Part shown: piece by piece, positions 3,859-27,100 of the stretch | How the letters are laid out: each line of letters opens with the position of its first letter | Position numbering within the stretch: the stretch's first letter is position 1 | NCBI GenBank assembly: GCA_021604005.1 | Contig: BQIV01000038.1 | Location: 1-44,721 of the forward strand | From: Nitrospirales bacterium | GTDB taxonomy: Bacteria; Nitrospirota; Nitrospiria; Nitrospirales; UBA8639 | Direction of reading: 5' to 3' | Length of the DNA: 44,721 nt | Position numbers and translations under genes: made by a program | The notes under the pieces: generated by a model | Databases searched by the model: none | What the model was told of the DNA's origin: nothing | What the model saw: only the letters and a program-made list of their open reading frames with translations

Positions 3859-5065
3859 TGCAAGAACGCCTGCCCGGATGGGGTCAATGAGATCAGGTAT
3901 TTCGGGGAGCTCAAGACCATCGAATCGTCCATTACGAATTTTGCATTCTGAATCCTCTATGGAGCTTGGTGGTCAGGAATTTCGTATTCTTCATGAAGTG
4001 CGTGGCATGGTAAAGCAAGGCCATTATGTCGTTCTCGCCGTGCAACCACGCAGTCAACTGGCCATGCGTGCGAAGCAACAGGGTCTTGTTGTCGAAGAAG
4101 TGACCATGAGTCGTGTCAGATGGGTGTGGCTCATTGTGGTCTTTCTCAAGCTCATTGCACGGCATCATATTCAAGTCGTGAATACCCATGGATCGATTGA
4201 CAGTTGGACGGCGGCCATTGCGGGCCGTATTTCCCATTGCCGCCCGCTGATCATCCGCACTCGCCATAAGTCCACGATGATTGCCAAGACATGGCGTCAT
4301 CATGTGTTGTATCAACACTTGCCTCACGCTGTCGTGACGACTGGAGAGGCAGTCAAGGATCTCGTGATGCGGCAGACGGATGTCCCGGGTGAGCGAGTCA
4401 TCTCCATTCCAACCGGGGTCGACTTGGAGATATTTCGGTGTAATCTGGAAGAGCACAGTCGTAAGACTCAGTCCTCCATAGCTGAGCGGACTGTTGTGAT
4501 CGGAACCGTGACGTTTTTCAGGACGTATAAAGGATTATCGTATCTCTTAGAGGCATTTCACATGGTGTTGTCTCAAGTGCCAGATCTCGTTTTGCATATT
4601 GTTGGTGATGGGCCGGACTATGCGTCGATCGTCCGTAAACGGGATGAGCTGGGAATGCAAGATCGTGTCGTGTTGACCGGGTATCGAGAGGATGTCGCGT
4701 CACAGTTAGCGACGATGGATGTGTTTGTCTTGCCATCGATTGAGGCTGAAGGCGTCCCGCAAAGTTTGACGCAAGCGATGGCGATGGGGATTGCGGCCAT
4801 TGCGACAGACGTGGGGAGTATTCGAGAGGTTGTCCAGCATGAAGCAACTGGACTTTTGGTGGAGGCCAGAAACAGTGACGCACTCGCTCAAGCCATGATT
4901 CGTCTTGTCACGAATCAACAGCTTCGAGATGACTTAGGGCAAGCGGCCAGAACACATATTGAGCGGGCCTATAGCTTTACGGGCATGCTTGCGCGAACCG
5001 AATCCGTCTATCGGGAGTTTCTTGAGCAACGGGCGTTAGCAGGCATAAACGAGAGTAGTCGATGA
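3842..5065 (+). CDS. Family 4 glycosyltransferase (GT-B)
   Basis: A 407-residue retaining GT4 enzyme. An N-terminal acceptor domain begins at LRILHSESSMELGGQEFRI. The C-terminal Glycos_transf_1 domain has VIGTVTFFRTYKGLSYLLEA near residue 219 and the E-x7-E region VLPSIEAEGVPQSLTQAMAM near residue 297. The product probably transfers a hexose from a nucleotide sugar to the LPS core or a glycan chain. The GTG start at 3842 overlaps the previous gene by 17 bp. An internal ATG at 3878 would avoid the overlap. The stop overlaps the next gene start by 4 bp. Sugar specificity cannot be read from the sequence. Confidence 0.83.
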   Translation: MSLPVDARTPARMGSMRSGISGSSRPSNRPLRILHSESSMELGGQEFRILHEVRGMVKQGHYVVLAVQPRSQLAMRAKQQGLVVEEVTMSRVRWVWLIVVFLKLIARHHIQVVNTHGSIDSWTAAIAGRISHCRPLIIRTRHKSTMIAKTWRHHVLYQHLPHAVVTTGEAVKDLVMRQTDVPGERVISIPTGVDLEIFRCNLEEHSRKTQSSIAERTVVIGTVTFFRTYKGLSYLLEAFHMVLSQVPDLVLHIVGDGPDYASIVRKRDELGMQDRVVLTGYREDVASQLATMDVFVLPSIEAEGVPQSLTQAMAMGIAAIATDVGSIREVVQHEATGLLVEARNSDALAQAMIRLVTNQQLRDDLGQAARTHIERAYSFTGMLARTESVYREFLEQRALAGINESSR

Positions 5066-12730: not shown

Positions 12731-12928
12731 CGTAGTCCCTTTCATACTATGCGATCAGCGATATGACCTGCTTTATGCGCAATCTTGCTTCAGGCTACCA
12801 TGATAGACGCAGGGGTTCAACCTGATCGATCCAGCGCGCTTGTGAGAGAAAGCCAGAGCGGAGATGAGCGGCGTGCCCCGTTCACATCGTGGCATGTTGG
12901 ACATAATTTCTATAAGGAGGGTAAGTGG

Positions 12929-13249
12929 ATGAAGGTTGTCAATCTTGCTGATTTTCAAGAGTTTTCTTCTGAGAAAATGAAAAAACACAACCTGTTTCAG
13001 TCAACGCGATTTTTTTGTGACGTGTATTGTCTTGAGCCGAGACAGGAACAAAAAGGTCATGTGCATGGCGATCAAGATAAAGTGTATCTTGTCATAGAAG
13101 GGTCTGGCACGTTTCGCGTTGGTGAGGAATGCCAAGTGCTTGGACTAGGGCAGGGAACGATGGCCCCCGCTGGGGAGGAGCACGGAGTTCTCAATCATAC
13201 GGATCAACGGCTTCGAGTCTTAGCGTTTATGGCACCGAATCCCTCTTGA
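12929..13249 (+). CDS. Cupin-domain protein
   Basis: A 106-residue single-domain cupin. The first cupin motif is GHVHGDQDKVYLVIEGSG and the second is APAGEEHGVLNHTD, giving a His/Glu metal-binding set and a beta-barrel fold. The function is unassigned, since small cupins of this type can bind metals or small ligands. I chose ATG 12929 because an excellent Shine-Dalgarno (TAAGGAGG, 12912-12919) precedes it. An open frame extends upstream to 12785, but that part looks non-coding. It converges on nirK with a hairpin between them. Confidence 0.82.
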   Translation: MKVVNLADFQEFSSEKMKKHNLFQSTRFFCDVYCLEPRQEQKGHVHGDQDKVYLVIEGSGTFRVGEECQVLGLGQGTMAPAGEEHGVLNHTDQRLRVLAFMAPNPS

Positions 13250-13263
13250 AAAACGGTAAACGT

Positions 13264-13336
13264 GAAACGGAAGACGATTGGGAAAAACAACATGTACTTG
13301 TCGTGTTCGTCTCACATTTCCCGTCTTCCGTTTTCC
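13264..13336. terminator. Hairpin between convergent cupin and nirK genes
   Basis: The left arm GAAACGGAAGACG plus GGGAAA (13264-13285) pairs with the right arm TTTCCCGTCTTCCGTTTTCC (13317-13336) around a 31-bp loop, with a 3-nt bulge. It sits between two convergent stop codons and could act as a bidirectional terminator. It has only short T or A runs, so factor-independent termination is not assured. Confidence 0.5.
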
Positions 13337-13371
13337 GAATATGACTTACATGAATTAGTCCGAATGGTTGA

Positions 13372-14391
13372 TCATTCCGGCTGATGTGCATCGAAGATTG
13401 AGGGGTTATCTTCTCCTGTAGCCGAAAGAATTCCCAACGCGCCTTTCGCGACGCGAAAGATACTGTGGTCGACGAGAAGGTAGGCTCCTGGCACGTCGAC
13501 CTTAAATTCGGCGATGACAGTACCAGCAGAAGGGACGAGGACAGTTTGCACGTTATGATTCAATGTACCGCCAATGGCTCCATCAACATAGACTGTGTCA
13601 AAGATTTCTCCAATGACGTGAAACGAGGAAACGCTATTCGGGCCGATGTTGCCAAAATACAAGCGCACACTTTCACCGGCCTTGGATGTCAATTCGCCTT
13701 CGCCGGTTAGCGCCCCAGTCTTTCCGTTAAACACGACATGATCAGGGTGTTCCGCAAGACCTTTCTCCATCGAGAGTTCAAACACACCGTTCTCTTGACT
13801 GGGCATCGTGAAAAACTCGCTTTGTACGATGGCATATTCCTGGTCGACCTTTGGGAGTCCTTCCTCGGGCTCGACGAGGATCATGCCATACATGCCGTTG
13901 GCAATGTGCGCAGGTATATTGGGAACGGGTGACGCGCAATGATACATATACAGTCCCGGATTTAATGCCTTAAAGGAGACAACGCCTTCTTGTCCTGGGG
14001 CTGCTAAGTTGGCCCCAGCTCCACCACCGGGTCCGTTGACGGCATGCAGGTCCATATTGTGAGGGAACTTACTGTCTTTGGAGTTTTTGAGATGAAGCTC
14101 AACTGTATCTCCCACACGAATACGCATCATGGGACCTGGGACCGTTCCGTTAAAACTCCAGAATTTATACTGTACGCCATCTGCTAAAGTACCAACAAAC
14201 TCTTTGGCTTCAAGATTGACCATAACGTGGGCAGGTTCCGAACGGTTGGTTGGCGCCGGTACTTTTGGTAACGTGGTCAGTTCTGCGGTAATAGAGTTCT
14301 TGGCAGTGCCTGTGGAAGAGAAAAGCAGGAGTAGGCTGAAGAAAAAGGCTAACATGTGTGTGTGTACATGATGGCGACCGAGGGTTTTCAT
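13372..14391 (-). CDS. nirK: Copper-containing nitrite reductase, NO-forming
   Basis: A 339-residue periplasmic two-cupredoxin enzyme that reduces nitrite to nitric oxide. A signal peptide covers about residues 1-30. The type 1 copper ligands are H111, C152, H162 and M167 (HNMDLHAVNG, MYHCAS, IPAHIANGMYG). The type 2 copper ligands are H116, H151 and H309 (VDHSIF). The catalytic pair is D114 and H258 (SSFHVIGE). All key residues are present and the length fits a compact class enzyme. GGAGG lies 7 bp before the ATG. A Crp/Fnr-type box and -10 element lie upstream. nirK is common in Nitrospira, where its physiological role is debated. Confidence 0.95.
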   Translation of the reverse strand: MKTLGRHHVHTHMLAFFFSLLLLFSSTGTAKNSITAELTTLPKVPAPTNRSEPAHVMVNLEAKEFVGTLADGVQYKFWSFNGTVPGPMMRIRVGDTVELHLKNSKDSKFPHNMDLHAVNGPGGGAGANLAAPGQEGVVSFKALNPGLYMYHCASPVPNIPAHIANGMYGMILVEPEEGLPKVDQEYAIVQSEFFTMPSQENGVFELSMEKGLAEHPDHVVFNGKTGALTGEGELTSKAGESVRLYFGNIGPNSVSSFHVIGEIFDTVYVDGAIGGTLNHNVQTVLVPSAGTVIAEFKVDVPGAYLLVDHSIFRVAKGALGILSATGEDNPSIFDAHQPE

Positions 14392-14436
14392 GTGGGCCTC
14401 CTATTGAGAAGATTACTTTATAAAGTGGCCGTAAAA

Positions 14437-14478
14437 ATCATATGGGAGGATTGACTGGAAAACTATGATCTAGATCAA
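14437..14478 (-). promoter_or_regulatory. Crp/Fnr-type box and -10 element of nirK
   Basis: Read on the minus strand, TTGATCTAGATCAT (14478-14465) matches the FNR/DNR consensus TTGAT-N4-ATCAA at 9 of 10 specified positions. A -10 element TATGAT lies at 14442-14437. The inferred start site at 14430 puts the box centre (14471.5) at -41.5, the class II activator position. This is a strong but untested prediction. Confidence 0.75.
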
Positions 14479-14774
14479 TGTTCAAGGAATATTTCAAAGT
14501 CTAGTGGGTGTTGAATAATTCATGAATAGCCAGAAATCAGCCAATATCTCTCTAATCCATGCCAGTATGGTAGGCAAGGCTTGCTCAAAACCTATCCTAA
14601 GTTTTGCGGGTGATCACCAAGGCCAAATTTGTAAAACCTTACTTTGCTTTTTTCGAAATACGAGATACGATTCACGAGCGACGAGTCAGGAGAACGGAAC
14701 GTCTCAGTGTTGCAGCCTATGGCGTTAGCGAAGGTCAGCGGATTTTTAACAGACTCACTCTGTAACTAAGTTGG
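14479..14774. other. Intergenic region between nirK and cca promoters
   Basis: The divergent genes nirK and cca are separated by 383 bp. The nirK-proximal part holds the Fnr-type box and promoter. In the rest I see no gene. The one short open frame (14522-14728) has no ribosome-binding site or recognisable protein content. The cca promoter should lie here but no clear hexamers stand out. Confidence 0.5.
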
Positions 14775-16169
14775 ATGGAACGACTCGCCTTGCACATAGG
14801 AGATGACTCCACAAATGGAGCATTGAACACGATTTTTCAAGAGGTTCGACGAGCGGGAGGACGAGCCTTATTCGTGGGGGGATGCGTACGTGATGCGATT
14901 CTTGACGATCAAGCCAAAGACCTGGACATCGAAGTCTATGGAATGACTCCTGAAGCATTGAAGCGACTCTTAGCGACCCGTTTCAAGACTGATTGCGTTG
15001 GTGAGGCGTTTGGAATCATCAAAATCCATGATTTGCCAATCGATATATCCATTCCTCGGCGTGAATCCAAGATTGGATTAGGCCATAAGGCATTTGACAT
15101 TCTTTCTGATCCCACGATGACACCAAGAGAAGCGGCGGTGCGTCGAGACTTTACGATGAATGCTATGGCCTATGACCCAGTGACTCAAGAACTGATTGAT
15201 CCTTTTTCGGGATTTCAGGATCTCAAAGATCATATTCTGCGACACGTCGGCGCACAATTTTCAGAAGATCCGCTTCGAGTCCTTCGTGGACATCAATTTG
15301 CCGGACGATTTTCCTTACAGGCAACACCAGAAACTCTACGATTATGCCAAGACCTGGTAGTTGAATATGACGTCTTGGCCATCGAACGCGTGTGGGGAGA
15401 ATGGTACAAGTGGGCTGCACAATCTCGGCTGCCTTCCGCCGGGTTAAAATTTCTTCAGCAATGTCAGTGGCTTCGATTGTATCCGGAACTTGCCGCACTT
15501 CAAGGTTGTCCGCAGGATTCCCGGTATCATCCCGAAGGGGATGTGTGGGTTCATACGCTACACGTGGTCGATCAAGCTGCCCGAATTGCTGAACGAGATT
15601 ATCTCAATTCAGAAGATCGTGTGGTACTGGTTTTTTCAGCTCTGTGTCATGATCTTGGAAAGCCTGAAACGACTGAAGTGTTGAGTAATCGGATTCGGTC
15701 TTATGGACATACCGGAACCGTCGAAACTTTTCGAACATTTCTTGGTCAAATTGGCATGCCAATCGGTTTGATGAACCGCGTGATGTATCTATGCCAGTAT
15801 CATCTGACCCATATCGATTTTATGGGTTCACCGCGGCATGTTCGTAGGGTGGCGGTCGCACTCGGGGAGGTGGGAGAAACGCTGCAAATGCTGGCGCGAC
15901 TCGTGGAAGCTGATCACAGTGGTCGTCCACCGCTCCCACAAGAACTTCCTGATGCTATGCGTCAAATGTTGTATGTGGCTCATGATTTAGCCATCCAGGA
16001 TCAAGCACCGAGGCCTCTGCTCATGGGAAGGCATTTATTAGAGATGAACATGCCACCCGGTCCCAAGATGGGTGAAATTCTGAAAGCTGCGTTTGAAGCG
16101 CAATTAGAAGGAAAATTCGATTCCGTGGAAGGTGCTCGCGAGTGGGTACAGAAGCACTATTTAGGATAG
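14775..16169 (+). CDS. cca: CCA-adding tRNA nucleotidyltransferase with HD domain
   Basis: A 464-residue class II nucleotidyltransferase that builds or repairs the tRNA 3' CCA end. The N-terminal catalytic domain has FVGGCVRDAILD near residue 34, the metal-binding motif KDLDIEVYG near residue 48, the RRDFTMNAMAYDP motif near residue 122, and DPLRVLRGHQFAGRF near residue 172. The C-terminal half contains an HD phosphohydrolase motif (VWVHTLHVVDQAA, then ALCHDLGKPETTE near residue 290), as in multifunctional CCA enzymes. Poly(A) polymerase activity is the alternative. The tRNA-Ser in this window already encodes CCA, so repair is the likely role. Confidence 0.9.
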   Translation: MERLALHIGDDSTNGALNTIFQEVRRAGGRALFVGGCVRDAILDDQAKDLDIEVYGMTPEALKRLLATRFKTDCVGEAFGIIKIHDLPIDISIPRRESKIGLGHKAFDILSDPTMTPREAAVRRDFTMNAMAYDPVTQELIDPFSGFQDLKDHILRHVGAQFSEDPLRVLRGHQFAGRFSLQATPETLRLCQDLVVEYDVLAIERVWGEWYKWAAQSRLPSAGLKFLQQCQWLRLYPELAALQGCPQDSRYHPEGDVWVHTLHVVDQAARIAERDYLNSEDRVVLVFSALCHDLGKPETTEVLSNRIRSYGHTGTVETFRTFLGQIGMPIGLMNRVMYLCQYHLTHIDFMGSPRHVRRVAVALGEVGETLQMLARLVEADHSGRPPLPQELPDAMRQMLYVAHDLAIQDQAPRPLLMGRHLLEMNMPPGPKMGEILKAAFEAQLEGKFDSVEGAREWVQKHYLG

Positions 16170-16195
16170 ATGTAAAGAGTTGGGTTTCATTTGAT

Positions 16196-16317
16196 GGGTC
16201 TGTTGAAAAAAGCCGCCAGCGGCGTTCTCGCCCTTTTGCCGTGCTCACGTAATGCCAGTACGCTGCGCGCGTCAAAACGGCTGCGGCCTTGCTGGACGGA
16301 CTTTTTTGAACCGACCC
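16196..16317. repeat. 122-bp palindromic (MITE-like) repeat
   Basis: The left end GGGTCTGTTGAAAAAAGCCG is matched in reverse complement by the right end (16291-16317), giving arms of about 25 bp with a few mismatches. The centre contains GCCGT...ACGGC. Elements with this TGTTGAAAAA...CGCCAGCGGCG...GGCCTTGCTGGAC pattern are widely scattered between genes in environmental bacteria and give rise to spurious short open frames. It lies between the convergent cca and Crp genes. Confidence 0.8.
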
Positions 16318-16611
16318 AAGGCTTCTGATAGTCAACGTCTTCCTGGGTATTTACGGCTGATGATCTTCTCAATATTCAACACTTCCTTGATGGACCGTCT
16401 CGAATTGAGTGAGGAGCCGTTCTGTTGAAAAGAATCTTTCGTACATGCCTGCGCTGTATCTAACGGATATCCAGACGTCGTACTGTTGATTGAGAGATTC
16501 GCTTTCTCTGGAATGATACGATGGATACCGGTTCGTCGTGTGTGTGTTACGAAGAGCTGCGCAAACAGTTTCTGAGAGAGGAGTCCCAGGTTTTTACACG
16601 TTCAGAACTTC
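16318..16611. other. Intergenic region, nothing recognised
   Basis: About 290 bp between the palindromic repeat and the Crp/Fnr gene stop codon. No credible reading frame, RNA gene or clear terminator was found. Confidence 0.5.
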
Positions 16612-17307
16612 CTACGTCAACGATTCACTCGAGAGGGTTTTCAGGTGACCTAAGTCACGGACAATCAAGTGACAGGCCGTTCCCACAATAAGATTTTCCT
16701 TTTTAAATCGGCTCATAATGCGGCTGGTCGTCTCAAGAGTGAGCCCCGCCATATCGGCAAAGTCTTGACGGGTGAGGCGTATATTGAGTCGCAGCCCTTC
16801 GGGCTCGCGAGTGCCAACTTTGGTGGCGAGATTGACCAACAGGGAGGCTAATCGACGTTCTGCAGAATCAAGGGCAAAAGCTTTAGCACTATCCTGAGCT
16901 TCACAAAGGCGATCCCCTAAATACCGAATGATTTGAATAGCCGTTTCAGGGTTTCGCTGAATTATGTCAAGTAATACCTTGCGGCTGATCTTGATGACCT
17001 TGGCATTGTCCATGGCCTGAGCACATCCGGGGTGTAAGGCTCCATTGAAGACAGAGCCTTCGCAACAAAACAGATCTCCCGGCATGAGAACTTTCAGTGT
17101 GACTTCTCTGCCTTCTGGTGTAGACTGAACGCATTTGACGGAGCCTTCCTTGAGGATATGAAACCACTCCACGGCATCGCCTTCTCGAAAAATAAATTCA
17201 TCTTTTCGACAAGACAGTTCGATAGACTGCCTCTCGAGTTCTTCACGGTCGGCATTGCTCAGACAGTTGAAGAGCGGCAAGGTCTCAAAAACGCTTTGAT
17301 TGGACAT
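16612..17307 (-). CDS. Crp/Fnr-family transcriptional regulator
   Basis: A 231-residue regulator with an N-terminal cyclic-nucleotide-binding-like domain (FIFREGDAVEWFHILKEGSV, VLMPGDLFCCEG) and a C-terminal winged helix. The recognition helix GLTLETTSRIMSRF has E192, S195 and R196, the E-x-x-S-R code used by FNR/DNR proteins to read TTGAT-N4-ATCAA. The FNR iron-sulfur cysteine spacing is absent, although C15, C33, C59, C81, C82 and C95 could sense redox or metal. The start lies 6 bp after the transketolase stop, so both share a transcript. nirK, with a matching box, is 2.2 kb away and is the obvious candidate target. Confidence 0.9.
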   Translation of the reverse strand: MSNQSVFETLPLFNCLSNADREELERQSIELSCRKDEFIFREGDAVEWFHILKEGSVKCVQSTPEGREVTLKVLMPGDLFCCEGSVFNGALHPGCAQAMDNAKVIKISRKVLLDIIQRNPETAIQIIRYLGDRLCEAQDSAKAFALDSAERRLASLLVNLATKVGTREPEGLRLNIRLTRQDFADMAGLTLETTSRIMSRFKKENLIVGTACHLIVRDLGHLKTLSSESLT

Positions 17308-17313
17308 GAGTGA

Positions 17314-19170
17314 TCACACGAGACGTTTGGCGGTCTCGACGATGACGCGGGCGCTGATGCCATACCGATCCAATAATTCATTGGATTTTCCGCTATGCGG
17401 GATTTCTCTGACCGCCAGCTTATGAAGCCGAATGCCTTCTCCTGATAATGCGCTGAGCACGGCATCGCCCAGCCCACCATGTGCGTAGTGGTCTTCGACG
17501 GTGAGGAATGTGTTGGACGTGGCGCGCGCGCATTCTAAGAGTGTTGCCCGATCGATCGGGACGATACTGTACAGATCGACAATACGAACATGAATGCCGG
17601 CCTCGGCGAGTTCGTCATAGGCTTTTAAGGCTTCGAACAGCGTGACGCCAGCGGCGACAATCGTTAAGCGGTCTTGATCGCTTTGTCGAAGAACTTTCGA
17701 CCCTCCAATATGGAAAATATCATCATTGCCATAGAGGATTGGGGTTTTGGGTCGGCTGGTCCGCATATAGACCATGCCTTCATGGGAAGCGGCGGCCTGT
17801 ACCAAATGATACGCACAAACGGCATCCGACGGGTATAAGACGGTAACTCCCGGCTGGACCGACATCATGGCTAAATCTTCAAGCCCCATTTGCGACGGTC
17901 CATCTTCGCCGATGCTGACTCCTGCATGCGATCCCATAAGTTTGATATTGGCGTGGCTGATAGCCGACATTCGAATGAAATCGTAGGCGCGAGTGAGGAA
18001 GCACGCAAAGGTTGCCGCAAACGGAATTTTACCGCATGCCGCAAGGCCTGCCGCGGCGCCGACCATGTTTTGTTCGGCAATAAAATTCTCAAAGAATCGT
18101 GTTGGAAATCGTTGGCCGAACTTGTCGGTAAACGTGGAATTTTTAACATCGGCATCGAGGGTGACAACGAGCGAGTTGGCTTCGCCTAGATGCACAAGTG
18201 CTTCTCCAAATGCTTCACGCGTGGCCACAGACTTTTGCGCATCATATGCCGGTGGAGCAACGGGTAAGATTTTGGGTGGAGCGGATTCGTGAGGAGTTGG
18301 TCCAGGAATGGTCGGAGATGGCTCTGCCGTATTCAACAAAGCGGAGAGCTCGTGGATCGCTTTTTCCGAATCCTCGCGGTTGAGCGGTTTTCCATGCCAG
18401 TTCATTTTATCTTCGGCAAAAGAAATGCCTTTGCCTTTTAATGTTTTGGCTAAGAGGACGGTTGGTCGATCGTGGGTATTGGCCGCTTCGTGAAAGGCCT
18501 CATGTAAGGCTGTGTGGTCATGTCCGTCGACAGGTATCGTATGCCACCCGAATCCCTTCCACCGTGCTTGATACGCGTTGATGTCATGTTGGAGCAGCGT
18601 TGGATCGGATTGCCCCAGCCGATTGATATCGACAATGGCGCAGAGGTTGTCGAGCTGTTGGTATTGCGCAATTTCCGCAGCTTCCCAGACCGATCCTTCC
18701 ACTGATTCTCCATCACCCATCAGAACATACACACGTGCATCGTTTTGATCTAAATATTTATGATTGAGGGCAATGCCCACTCCGCCACACAGGCCTTGAC
18801 CGAGTGAGCCTGTCGCCATGTCCACAAATGGCAGTCGAGGAGTTGGATGCCCTTCTAAATCCGAATGAAGTTTTCGTAAATTGACGAGGTCGTTCCGTTG
18901 AATCAACCCCGCTTCAGCCCAGGCAGCATAGAGTAGGGGGGCGGCATGCCCCTTCGATAAAATAAATCGATCATTCCCAGGATGTTTCGGATCGCTGGGA
19001 TCATACCGCATAATGCCAAAGAAGAGGGTTGCGACGATGTCGGCAGCAGAACAACAACTAGTCGGATGCCCGCTTCCCGCCTCGGTCGTTCCCTGAATAC
19101 TATGAATTCGTAATTGCGTTGCGTAATGTTGCAGCGATTGCATTGACTGGCCAGAAACAGTAGGTGACAC
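17314..19170 (-). CDS. tkt: Transketolase
   Basis: A 618-residue thiamine-diphosphate enzyme exchanging two-carbon units between ketose and aldose phosphates in the pentose phosphate and related pathways. The substrate-site motif TEAGSGHPTSCCSAADIV is near residue 30, the ThDP motif GDGESVEGSVWEAAEIA is near residue 151, and the pyrimidine domain has FFENFIAEQNMVGAAAG and GSHAGVSIGEDGPSQMG. The C-terminal domain is complete. I prefer GTG 19170 to TTG 19182 because GGAG lies 6-7 bp before it. It is a single-chain protein, somewhat shorter than the ~660-residue enterobacterial form, and is followed by the Crp/Fnr gene. Confidence 0.92.
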   Translation of the reverse strand: MSPTVSGQSMQSLQHYATQLRIHSIQGTTEAGSGHPTSCCSAADIVATLFFGIMRYDPSDPKHPGNDRFILSKGHAAPLLYAAWAEAGLIQRNDLVNLRKLHSDLEGHPTPRLPFVDMATGSLGQGLCGGVGIALNHKYLDQNDARVYVLMGDGESVEGSVWEAAEIAQYQQLDNLCAIVDINRLGQSDPTLLQHDINAYQARWKGFGWHTIPVDGHDHTALHEAFHEAANTHDRPTVLLAKTLKGKGISFAEDKMNWHGKPLNREDSEKAIHELSALLNTAEPSPTIPGPTPHESAPPKILPVAPPAYDAQKSVATREAFGEALVHLGEANSLVVTLDADVKNSTFTDKFGQRFPTRFFENFIAEQNMVGAAAGLAACGKIPFAATFACFLTRAYDFIRMSAISHANIKLMGSHAGVSIGEDGPSQMGLEDLAMMSVQPGVTVLYPSDAVCAYHLVQAAASHEGMVYMRTSRPKTPILYGNDDIFHIGGSKVLRQSDQDRLTIVAAGVTLFEALKAYDELAEAGIHVRIVDLYSIVPIDRATLLECARATSNTFLTVEDHYAHGGLGDAVLSALSGEGIRLHKLAVREIPHSGKSNELLDRYGISARVIVETAKRLV

Positions 19171-19513
19171 GATAGACTCCAATTGTTTGGTGAAATGGAA
19201 TGGACGTTATAGCCCCTCGATGTGACGATAGAAAACCTTCATTATCTTCAACAGTGCGGATCAGACTGACTCACTTGGTGACATTTCGCAGATGCTGAAG
19301 GAATATGGAACGGCTATAGGTGAGTTACGGTAACAGACGCTTCCTATCCAGTCAATTTGTGGATTCTCGTAGTTCCGTGATGGTCTTACCACCTTGAATA
19401 ACTATATATTGTGTCATGTGATAATTGAGCGTATATGCATATGGGAGAGAGGTTGTGTGTTACCATACACGTTTTTTATGAATGAATCGAAAGGCGTAGA
19501 CAAGGAGGAGGCA
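19171..19513. other. Divergent intergenic region, tkt and lipoprotein
   Basis: About 340 bp separate the transketolase gene from the small lipoprotein gene. It should hold both promoters. TTGAAT near 19394 and an extended -10-like TGTGATAAT near 19418 are possible elements for the rightward gene, but the 20-bp spacing is poor. No credible gene is seen. Confidence 0.35.
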
Positions 19514-24195: not shown

Positions 24196-27100
24196 TTAAT
24201 CGTGAAGCGTGACGGTCGACTTGCCCAGGATATGCTCAACCTCTTCCATGAATTCGGCGTTGGGAAGGACGCCGATGTTAGGGAGTGGAGAGGTCTTCGC
24301 GCATATCTGACTTTGAAGAGAAAAATGAATCGAGACTGAGACTGGTCCCGGGTGCCGGAGGAAAATACCGTGCAAATGATCCAAGCTGTTGTCTTGGGTA
24401 ACCGATTCGTCAATGTTGAGGGTCAACGATTTGATGTTATGTGACAGGAGTTCATGAATGGGCCGGATTGCCGTCGCTTTGATGCGTGTGCCACTGTCCA
24501 TCTGATCGACGGTTCCGGTGATCTGGATAATCGACTCGGGAACCACGTGCTCGGCACTGGCCTTGTAGAGTTCGGGGAAGACAATAATCTCAACCGTTCC
24601 GTAGAGATCTTCAAGCTGGATATAGGCCATGGGATCCCCACGTTTGGTTGTATGGTGTTTGATTGAAGAGACGACGCCACAGAGTTTGATATCTTTCCCT
24701 TCCCGGACGTCGGTCAATGTCGCCGTCGTACTGGTAGAAAATTGTTTGATGGCGGCCGCATGTCTATTGAGTGGATGAGCGGTGATATAAAATCCCGTCA
24801 ATTCCCGTTCGTATTTCAAGAGCTCCGGTTGCGGCCATTCGCTCAGATTGGGCAAGGAAAATTCTAGTGGTGTCGCGGAGTCTTGGGTGCTGTCTTCCTC
24901 TATCGCTTCAAAGAGGCTAGTTTGACCATGTCGTTTCCGGCGTTGAACGGTGTTGGCTTCTTCTAACGCTTTTTCCAGTATCGCCATCAATTGAGACCGG
25001 GTGAGTTTCATGGAATCGAAGGCTCCGACTTTGATTAATCCCTCAATCACGCGTTTATTGACTTTCTGTAAATCGATCTGACAGCAAAAGTCATAAAATG
25101 AGCGAAAGAGGCCGTTGTCTTCGCGTGTCGCTAAAATACTTTCAACGGCTCCGCCACCTACGTTCTTAATCGCCGCCAACCCGAATCGTATACCGTCCGG
25201 AACTACGGAAAAATCCTTTCCGCTTTGATTGACATCAGGGGGGAGAATTTTCAGTCCCCGTTCGCGGCATTCCGTGAAATAGCCGACCATTTTGTCGGTA
25301 TTGCCCATTTCCGTGGTCAGTAAGGCCGCCATGAATTCCGTCGGATAATGTGTCTTGAGGTAGGCGGTCTGATATGTCACGAGGGCATAGGCCGCAGAAT
25401 GCGATTTATTGAATCCGTACCCTGCAAAAAAGGCCATTTGATCAAACAGCTTTTCGGCCTTTTTCTCTGGAATACGTTTCTGTTTCGCGCCTTCGATGAA
25501 TAAGGCTTTCTGTTTGGCCATTTCTTCGTGTTTTTTCTTCCCCATGGCTCGCCGGAGCAGATCCGCTTGTCCGAGGCTAAACCCGGCAAGCTGGTTAGCT
25601 ACAGCCATAACCTGTTCTTGATAGACGATGACACCATAGGTTTCTTTGAGGATTGATTCAAGCTGAGGCGGATCGTATGTCGTTTTCGATGGGTCTCGCT
25701 TTCGTGCGATAAAGTCATCAACCATGCCGCTTTCCAATGGACCCGGGCGGTACAGCGCCAGAATAGCAATGAGATCTTCAAAACTTTCCGGTTTAATCTT
25801 CACGAGTAAGTTCCGCATGCCCGAACTTTCAAGTTGGAAGATGCCGGTAGTTTTTCCCGTCGCCAGTAACGCGTAGGTCTTGGCGTCGGTGAGGGAAATA
25901 TGATTGATGTCGAGGTGCGCCGATTCAGGTGTGTTGGCATTGATGAGCTGCACGGCGCGATGGATCATCGTAAGTGTTTTAAGTCCAAGAAAGTCAAACT
26001 TCACCAATCCGACTTTTTCTACATCGGTCATGGTGTATTGGGTGACAATTTCGTCGTTGCTGGTTTTGTACAACGGGACATGTTCCATCAAGGGTTTTTG
26101 AGAAATCACCACGCCGGCGGCATGCGTGGAGGCATGCCGGGCAAGACCCTCCAAGGCTTGGGCCGTATCCATCAAGTCCTTCATGCGTGCATCGCTCTCG
26201 ATGAGCTCTTCCAAGCGAGGCTCTTGGGTTAAGGCCTCTTGCAAGGTAATATTCAATTGTGTGGGAACCAGTTTAGCCACGCGATCCACTTCGGCATAGG
26301 GAATATCCATGACCCGTCCCACGTCACGAATCGCCGCCTTTGCGCCGAGAGTCCCAAATGTGATGATTTGGCAGACGTGCTCTTCGCCATATTTTTCGAT
26401 GACGTAATTGATGACTTCGCCGCGACGGTCCATGCAGAAATCCATGTCGATATCTGGCATCGTGACGCGTTCAGGGTTCAAGAACCGTTCAAACAAGAGA
26501 TTGTATGACAGGGGATCGAGATCGGTGATTCGAAGGGCATAGGCGACAAGACTCCCTGCCGCAGAGCCGCGTCCAGGACCAACCGGAATGCCACGTGACC
26601 GTGCAAAATTGATAATGTCCCAGACAACCAGGAAATAGCCGGCATAGCCCATAGACGTTAAAATTCCGAGCTCGGCCTTAAGCCGTAATTCATAGGCGTC
26701 GCTTGCGATGCCGGTTGGCCGTTCCCGCAGTCTTGCGGCAAGTCCGTCTTCCGTAAGCTTTTGGAGGTAACTCTCACGGGTTTGACCGTCCGGTACCGGG
26801 TAATGGGGGAGATAGGTATCGCCAAATGACAGCTTGAGGTCGCAGAGTTCCGCAACTTGACAGGTATTCAAGACGGCTGACGGCAGTTCTGAAAAGTCGG
26901 CCACCATTTCATCTGTGGATTTGACATAGAGTTGATCAGTATCAAACTTCATACGTGACGGGTCTTTGAGGGTCTTGCCGGTCTGGAGGCAGAGCATGAT
27001 TTCATGTGGGCGGGCATCGCGTTTTTGGAGATAGTGGCAGTCATTGGTTCCGACTAACGGAATGCCGAGTTTCTTGTGAATGTCAACGAGTCCCCGATTG

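Follow-up and report, generated by a model that had tools for sequence, protein, structure and literature searches.

nirK, its promoter and the neighbouring regulator gene

The window analysed here is a stretch of 44,721 nt from a Nitrospirales bacterium (contig BQIV01000038.1). Its minus strand carries nirK, encoding a copper nitrite reductase, at 13372..14391; the initial annotation had named this gene as the one downstream of the promoter, and the assignment is borne out by alignment and by a score of 328.9 bits against the equivalog model TIGR02376 (cut-off 296.3). Upstream of the nirK ATG at 14391, on the same strand, lie a dyad, TTGATCTAGATCAT (14478..14465), and a −10 element, TATGAT (14442..14437), which matches TATAAT at five of six positions. 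The two elements are separated by 22 bp. With the last base of the −10 element set to −7 by convention, nirK transcription is predicted to start at about position 14430, which puts the centre of the dyad at −41.5. This is where the initial annotation had placed it, although the claim that the distance is exact hinges on the numbering convention. No −35 hexamer matching at more than 2/6 positions precedes TATGAT at spacers of 15–19 bp, and a consensus scan of positions 14300–14800 detected no ordinary sigma-70 promoter. With a site centred near −41.5, as judged from the −10 element, and a weak −35, the region has the features of a class II activator-dependent promoter.

A Crp/Fnr-type regulator, probably an activator, is encoded at 16612..17307 on the minus strand. 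The protein combines an effector domain (PF00027) with a Crp-type helix-turn-helix (HTH; PF13545), both above cut-off, and its structure model (pLDDT 83.5) matches the folds of CRP, GlxR and FNR; the structural comparison recovered only this general CRP/FNR fold, with no pointer to a ligand. As previously proposed for this protein, the aligned recognition helix contains an E-x-x-S-R motif (E192-T-T-S195-R196). This genome encodes three Crp/Fnr HTH proteins that exceed the Pfam cut-off, and the other two lack the motif.

The orthologue of the regulator gene adjoins nirK in most relatives, and is usually directly upstream of it in three Nitrospirales families. In the genus of the window the two are separated by a CCA-adding-enzyme-like gene (14775..16169, plus strand; PF01743 and an HD domain), which occupies the same place in two further genomes, G002 and G003, and lies outside the nirK circuit. 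On the other side of the regulator is a transketolase gene (17314..19182, minus strand; NF004559), in an order that is the same in relatives. Since only 6 bp separate the transketolase stop from the regulator start, these two genes are probably co-transcribed.

Conservation of the dyad with the regulator gene

A match of this quality could in principle be a chance occurrence of a common palindrome. The single-sequence evidence for an operator is modest: the 4.7-Mb genome contains 404 sites with no more than one mismatch to TTGAT-N4-ATCAA, a density at which ~0.03 such sites are expected in the 383-bp intergenic region. The sole perfect match in the window, at 26932–26945, is inside a 1162-aa ORF. 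We therefore turn to related genomes, having collected loci of nirK and the regulator from 59 relatives plus further family members. Those near relatives that have names are Nitrospirales MAGs, and the window probably belongs to family UBA8639 (Nitrospira lineage IV). A dyad was scored as TGAY-N4-RTCA no more than 350 bp ahead of the nirK start codon, with TANNNT 22–24 bp further on scored as a −10 element.

In genomes with a regulator orthologue, 28 of 29 nirK genes (the window counted) have the dyad upstream, and in 23 of these 28 it is followed by TANNNT at 22–24 bp. The five exceptions all belong to one genus, and most have CATNNT or GACAAT at 23 bp. Among 38 nirK genes from genomes without the regulator, a set that includes eight Nitrospinota loci for which absence was judged from the fetched flanks only, the dyad is present at two and a correctly spaced −10 at none. 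The difference between 28/29 and 2/38 corresponds to a Fisher p of ~2e-15 if kinship is ignored. Twenty new Nitrospiraceae loci, obtained in a separate search and not used in setting the rule, gave the same picture: the dyad is present at 19, all with a −10 at 22–24 bp. Each set contains one regulator-nirK locus with no clear box, L023 in the first and L246 in the second. At L246 (G215, a 1.8-Mb genome) a regulator with the helix ETVIR adjoins nirK, and there is no recognisable operator.

Position, spacing and linkage to the regulator are thus kept in 47 loci, against an expectation of ~2.8% per 350-bp upstream region. Because of this conservation we accept the nirK dyad as real and consider a chance match to have a negligible probability. 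We used a NirK tree of 87 rows to take account of kinship. The regulator label switches nine times on this tree, and well-supported branches require four of these switches. Among independent pairs, the box either tracks the regulator or shows no difference, and never goes in the opposite direction; there are too few such pairs for a kinship-corrected sign test to reach 0.05.

Individual loci illustrate how these elements are kept, lost or exchanged. In one relative (L219, G013:C1) the transketolase gene runs straight into nirK, and the regulator and the box are both missing. In another, from the genus of the window (L218, G003:C34), the transketolase-regulator-CCA gene-cupin-dsbA block persists without nirK, and the regulator is reduced to a remnant (3912–4137) in which only codons 1–40 and 134–170 are recognisable. 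Locus L055 (G055) shares with window positions 12785–19182 a block of transketolase, regulator, nirK and cupin genes. Its NirK is 40% identical to that of the window, whereas the flanking proteins are 58–74% identical, and a deep split on the tree separates the two NirK clades; given these differences, nirK at L055 looks to have been replaced in place behind the same operator.

Copies of nirK that lie away from the regulator gene were also considered. The dyad was not found at such paralogues in G000, G011 and G015; the genome of the window carries a second, remote NirK-like gene (G000:C16:10534-11457) that has no operator. By contrast, a second nirK copy away from the regulator in G053 (L216) has TGACAATTGTCA, with TATCCT 24 bp on, as would be expected under control in trans. 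One contig of G066 (C192, 7256–8173 and 21492–22409) carries nirK twice in inverted orientation; the two copies score equally and share one operator sequence, and may be an assembly artefact.

The search for further targets gave little beyond nirK. A strict FNR-consensus search of the genome returned hundreds of sites, and the exact ones that were inspected are mostly within coding sequence, such that this consensus does not delimit a regulon. When seven genomes were searched for the box plus −10 pattern, nirK was among the hits in six of them but not in G002, which has TAATAT. A few other sites with this pattern recur in more than one of the seven genomes; no second target is clearly shared.

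Operator sequence, recognition helix and candidate sensing site

Alignment of the operators gives ATGAY-N4-RTCAT as the family motif, usually ACATGAC-N4-GTCATGT in Nitrospiraceae. The window site had been described as one base off the FNR/DNR consensus. The count is correct, with one mismatch to TTGAT-N4-ATCAA (13/14 identical when the spacer is counted), and the site thus departs from a strict FNR/DNR operator; however, the final T that had been scored as the mismatch is the base conserved among the operators of relatives, and the left half of the site is its FNR-like half. The comparison indicates that the site fits ATGAY-N4-RTCAT better than it fits a mutated FNR/DNR box, and we rejected a damaged FNR box on these grounds.

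The operator also varies with the recognition helix. TGAT makes up 23 of 24 half-sites where the helix is ETTSR. Where I or T takes the place of the helix Ser (195), half-sites are mostly TGAC; the ETVIR helix of L248 was counted with the I group. With V at this position, found in one genus, the operator is a full TTGAT-N4-ATCAA, and this is the sole relative genus with that consensus. In these alignments the fourth half-site base (the Y of TGAY) follows helix residue 195, with lineage as a confounder. Helix-operator covariation is known at other positions in the Crp/Fnr superfamily (PMC1274295). The linked variation of a helix residue and an operator base is a naturally occurring data set for the study of DNA specificity in Crp/Fnr proteins.

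The regulator lacks sensor features of both FNR proper and CRP. The N-terminal cluster cysteines of FNR were not found in the regulator, and the position of the fourth FNR cysteine is occupied by Ile in the alignment. The score against the Fnr model NF008365 is 87.5 bits (cut-off 228). With the four [4Fe-4S] cysteines absent, FNR proper was rejected as the identity of the regulator. CRP proteins anchor cAMP with a PRTSSA-type effector segment; in the alignment with M. tuberculosis CRP, the regulator has HPGCAQ in its place, and it was not assigned to the cAMP receptors. Four effector-domain residues (Cys59, Cys81, Cys82 and His92) do not vary among 19 regulator orthologues and form a candidate sensing site. 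They suggest that the cue is redox state, a metal or a nitrogen oxide, and not cAMP or a cluster of the FNR type. The sequence lends no support to low oxygen or NO, which the initial annotation had given as possible signals. CooA, which has a heme-ligating cysteine in the corresponding GDxFC segment, may offer a lead.

Probable activation of nirK and comparison with known systems

In the mechanism we propose, the dyad serves as operator for an activator dedicated to nirK. The 16612–17307 protein would bind the dyad as a dimer, and E192, S195 and R196 in its recognition helix would read the TGAT half-sites. From about −41.5, the bound dimer would recruit RNA polymerase to a promoter with a −10 element and no usable −35. 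The pairing of operator and regulator is supported by the conserved spacing, the gene linkage, the co-loss and the helix-operator covariation, and by the regulator being the only ExxSR protein among the Crp/Fnr HTH proteins of its genome. We have high confidence that this regulator truly uses the dyad as an operator, and the same lines of sequence evidence make direct activation of nirK, as put forward in the initial annotation, very likely, with class II geometry. Our strongly favoured reading is that the 16612–17307 protein is a class II activator dedicated to nirK and acts from the dyad.

The regulator might instead repress nirK from the dyad until a signal releases it. A dyad over the −35 region can block polymerase, and class II spacing is also seen at sites of superfamily repressors. 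However, the fixed 22–24 bp to the −10 element and the missing −35 are signs of activation, and favour it. The persistence of nirK where the regulator has been lost also speaks against repression, although the promoters there differ. Activation is the probable mode, and we consider repression unlikely. Less likely still is a classical oxygen-responsive circuit, in which an Fe-S FNR on an FNR box turns nirK on as oxygen falls. The TGAT half-sites and ExxSR residues are both FNR-like, and the closest solved sequences are those of Aliivibrio fischeri FNR, but the cysteine cluster is lacking and the outer base of the operator is A/T rather than T/A in most relatives. A third circuit, resembling those of DNR and NnrR, would have the regulator sense NO, for example via heme, and activate nirK; it would amount to the dedicated activator with its signal supplied. 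NO is the product of the enzyme encoded by the target gene, DNR is among the sequence matches of the regulator, and NnrR has been predicted in Nitrospira (PMC8510549). On the other hand, other denitrification targets were not found in our searches, and homology to DNR is weaker than that to FNR and CRP. We regard this circuit as possible but doubtful. Returning to the dedicated activator, we tentatively suggest, at somewhat less than even probability, that it represents a Nitrospirota Crp/Fnr subfamily dedicated to nirK, which has an operator of its own, ATGAY-N4-RTCAT, and an undescribed Cys59/Cys81/Cys82/His92 sensor, the promoter having been retained when nirK was exchanged for one of a remote NirK clade.

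NirK is widespread in nitrite-oxidizing Nitrospirales, where its role has been described as unknown (PMC8115632, PMC6606698). The main text of a low-oxygen proteome study of N. marina names NirK once, giving its function as unknown and not listing it as induced (PMC8115632); this is neutral for the activator model, as N. marina may or may not carry the regulator-nirK pair. Operator and regulator gene are kept together across many nitrite-oxidizing Nitrospirales, and the predicted on-switch for nirK is thereby well supported. Having a regulator dedicated to this gene, and an operator defined for it, provides a handle, in that the signal of the regulator would tell when these organisms make NO.

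The adjacency of regulator and nirK in Nitrospira is already published. Camejo et al. 2017 (PMC5596200) described a gene, named as Fnr, that lies upstream of nirK in UW-LDO-01, N. moscoviensis, N. defluvii and OLB3, and proposed it as the controller. Our analysis concerns the same gene pair and the same proposed control of nirK; that account does not deal with an operator, its spacing, co-loss or the relation between helix and operator, and it names the protein Fnr, whereas the orthologues examined here lack the cluster cysteines. The literature we searched yielded this gene adjacency but no earlier account of the operator. The NnrR predicted in Nitrospira with a motif matrix from R. sphaeroides and enterobacteria (PMC8510549) is likewise a Crp/Fnr protein linked to nitrifier denitrification, and may or may not be the same protein. 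DNR and NnrR of Proteobacteria (PMC1274295) resemble the present case as Crp/Fnr activators beside or controlling nirK via a dyad of similar size, but the DNR motif is CTTGAT-N4-ATCAAG rather than ATGAY-N4-RTCAT. With FNR of E. coli and A. fischeri, the regulator described here shares the fold, the ExxSR helix and class II geometry; it differs from them in lacking the cluster cysteines and in the outer base of its operator.
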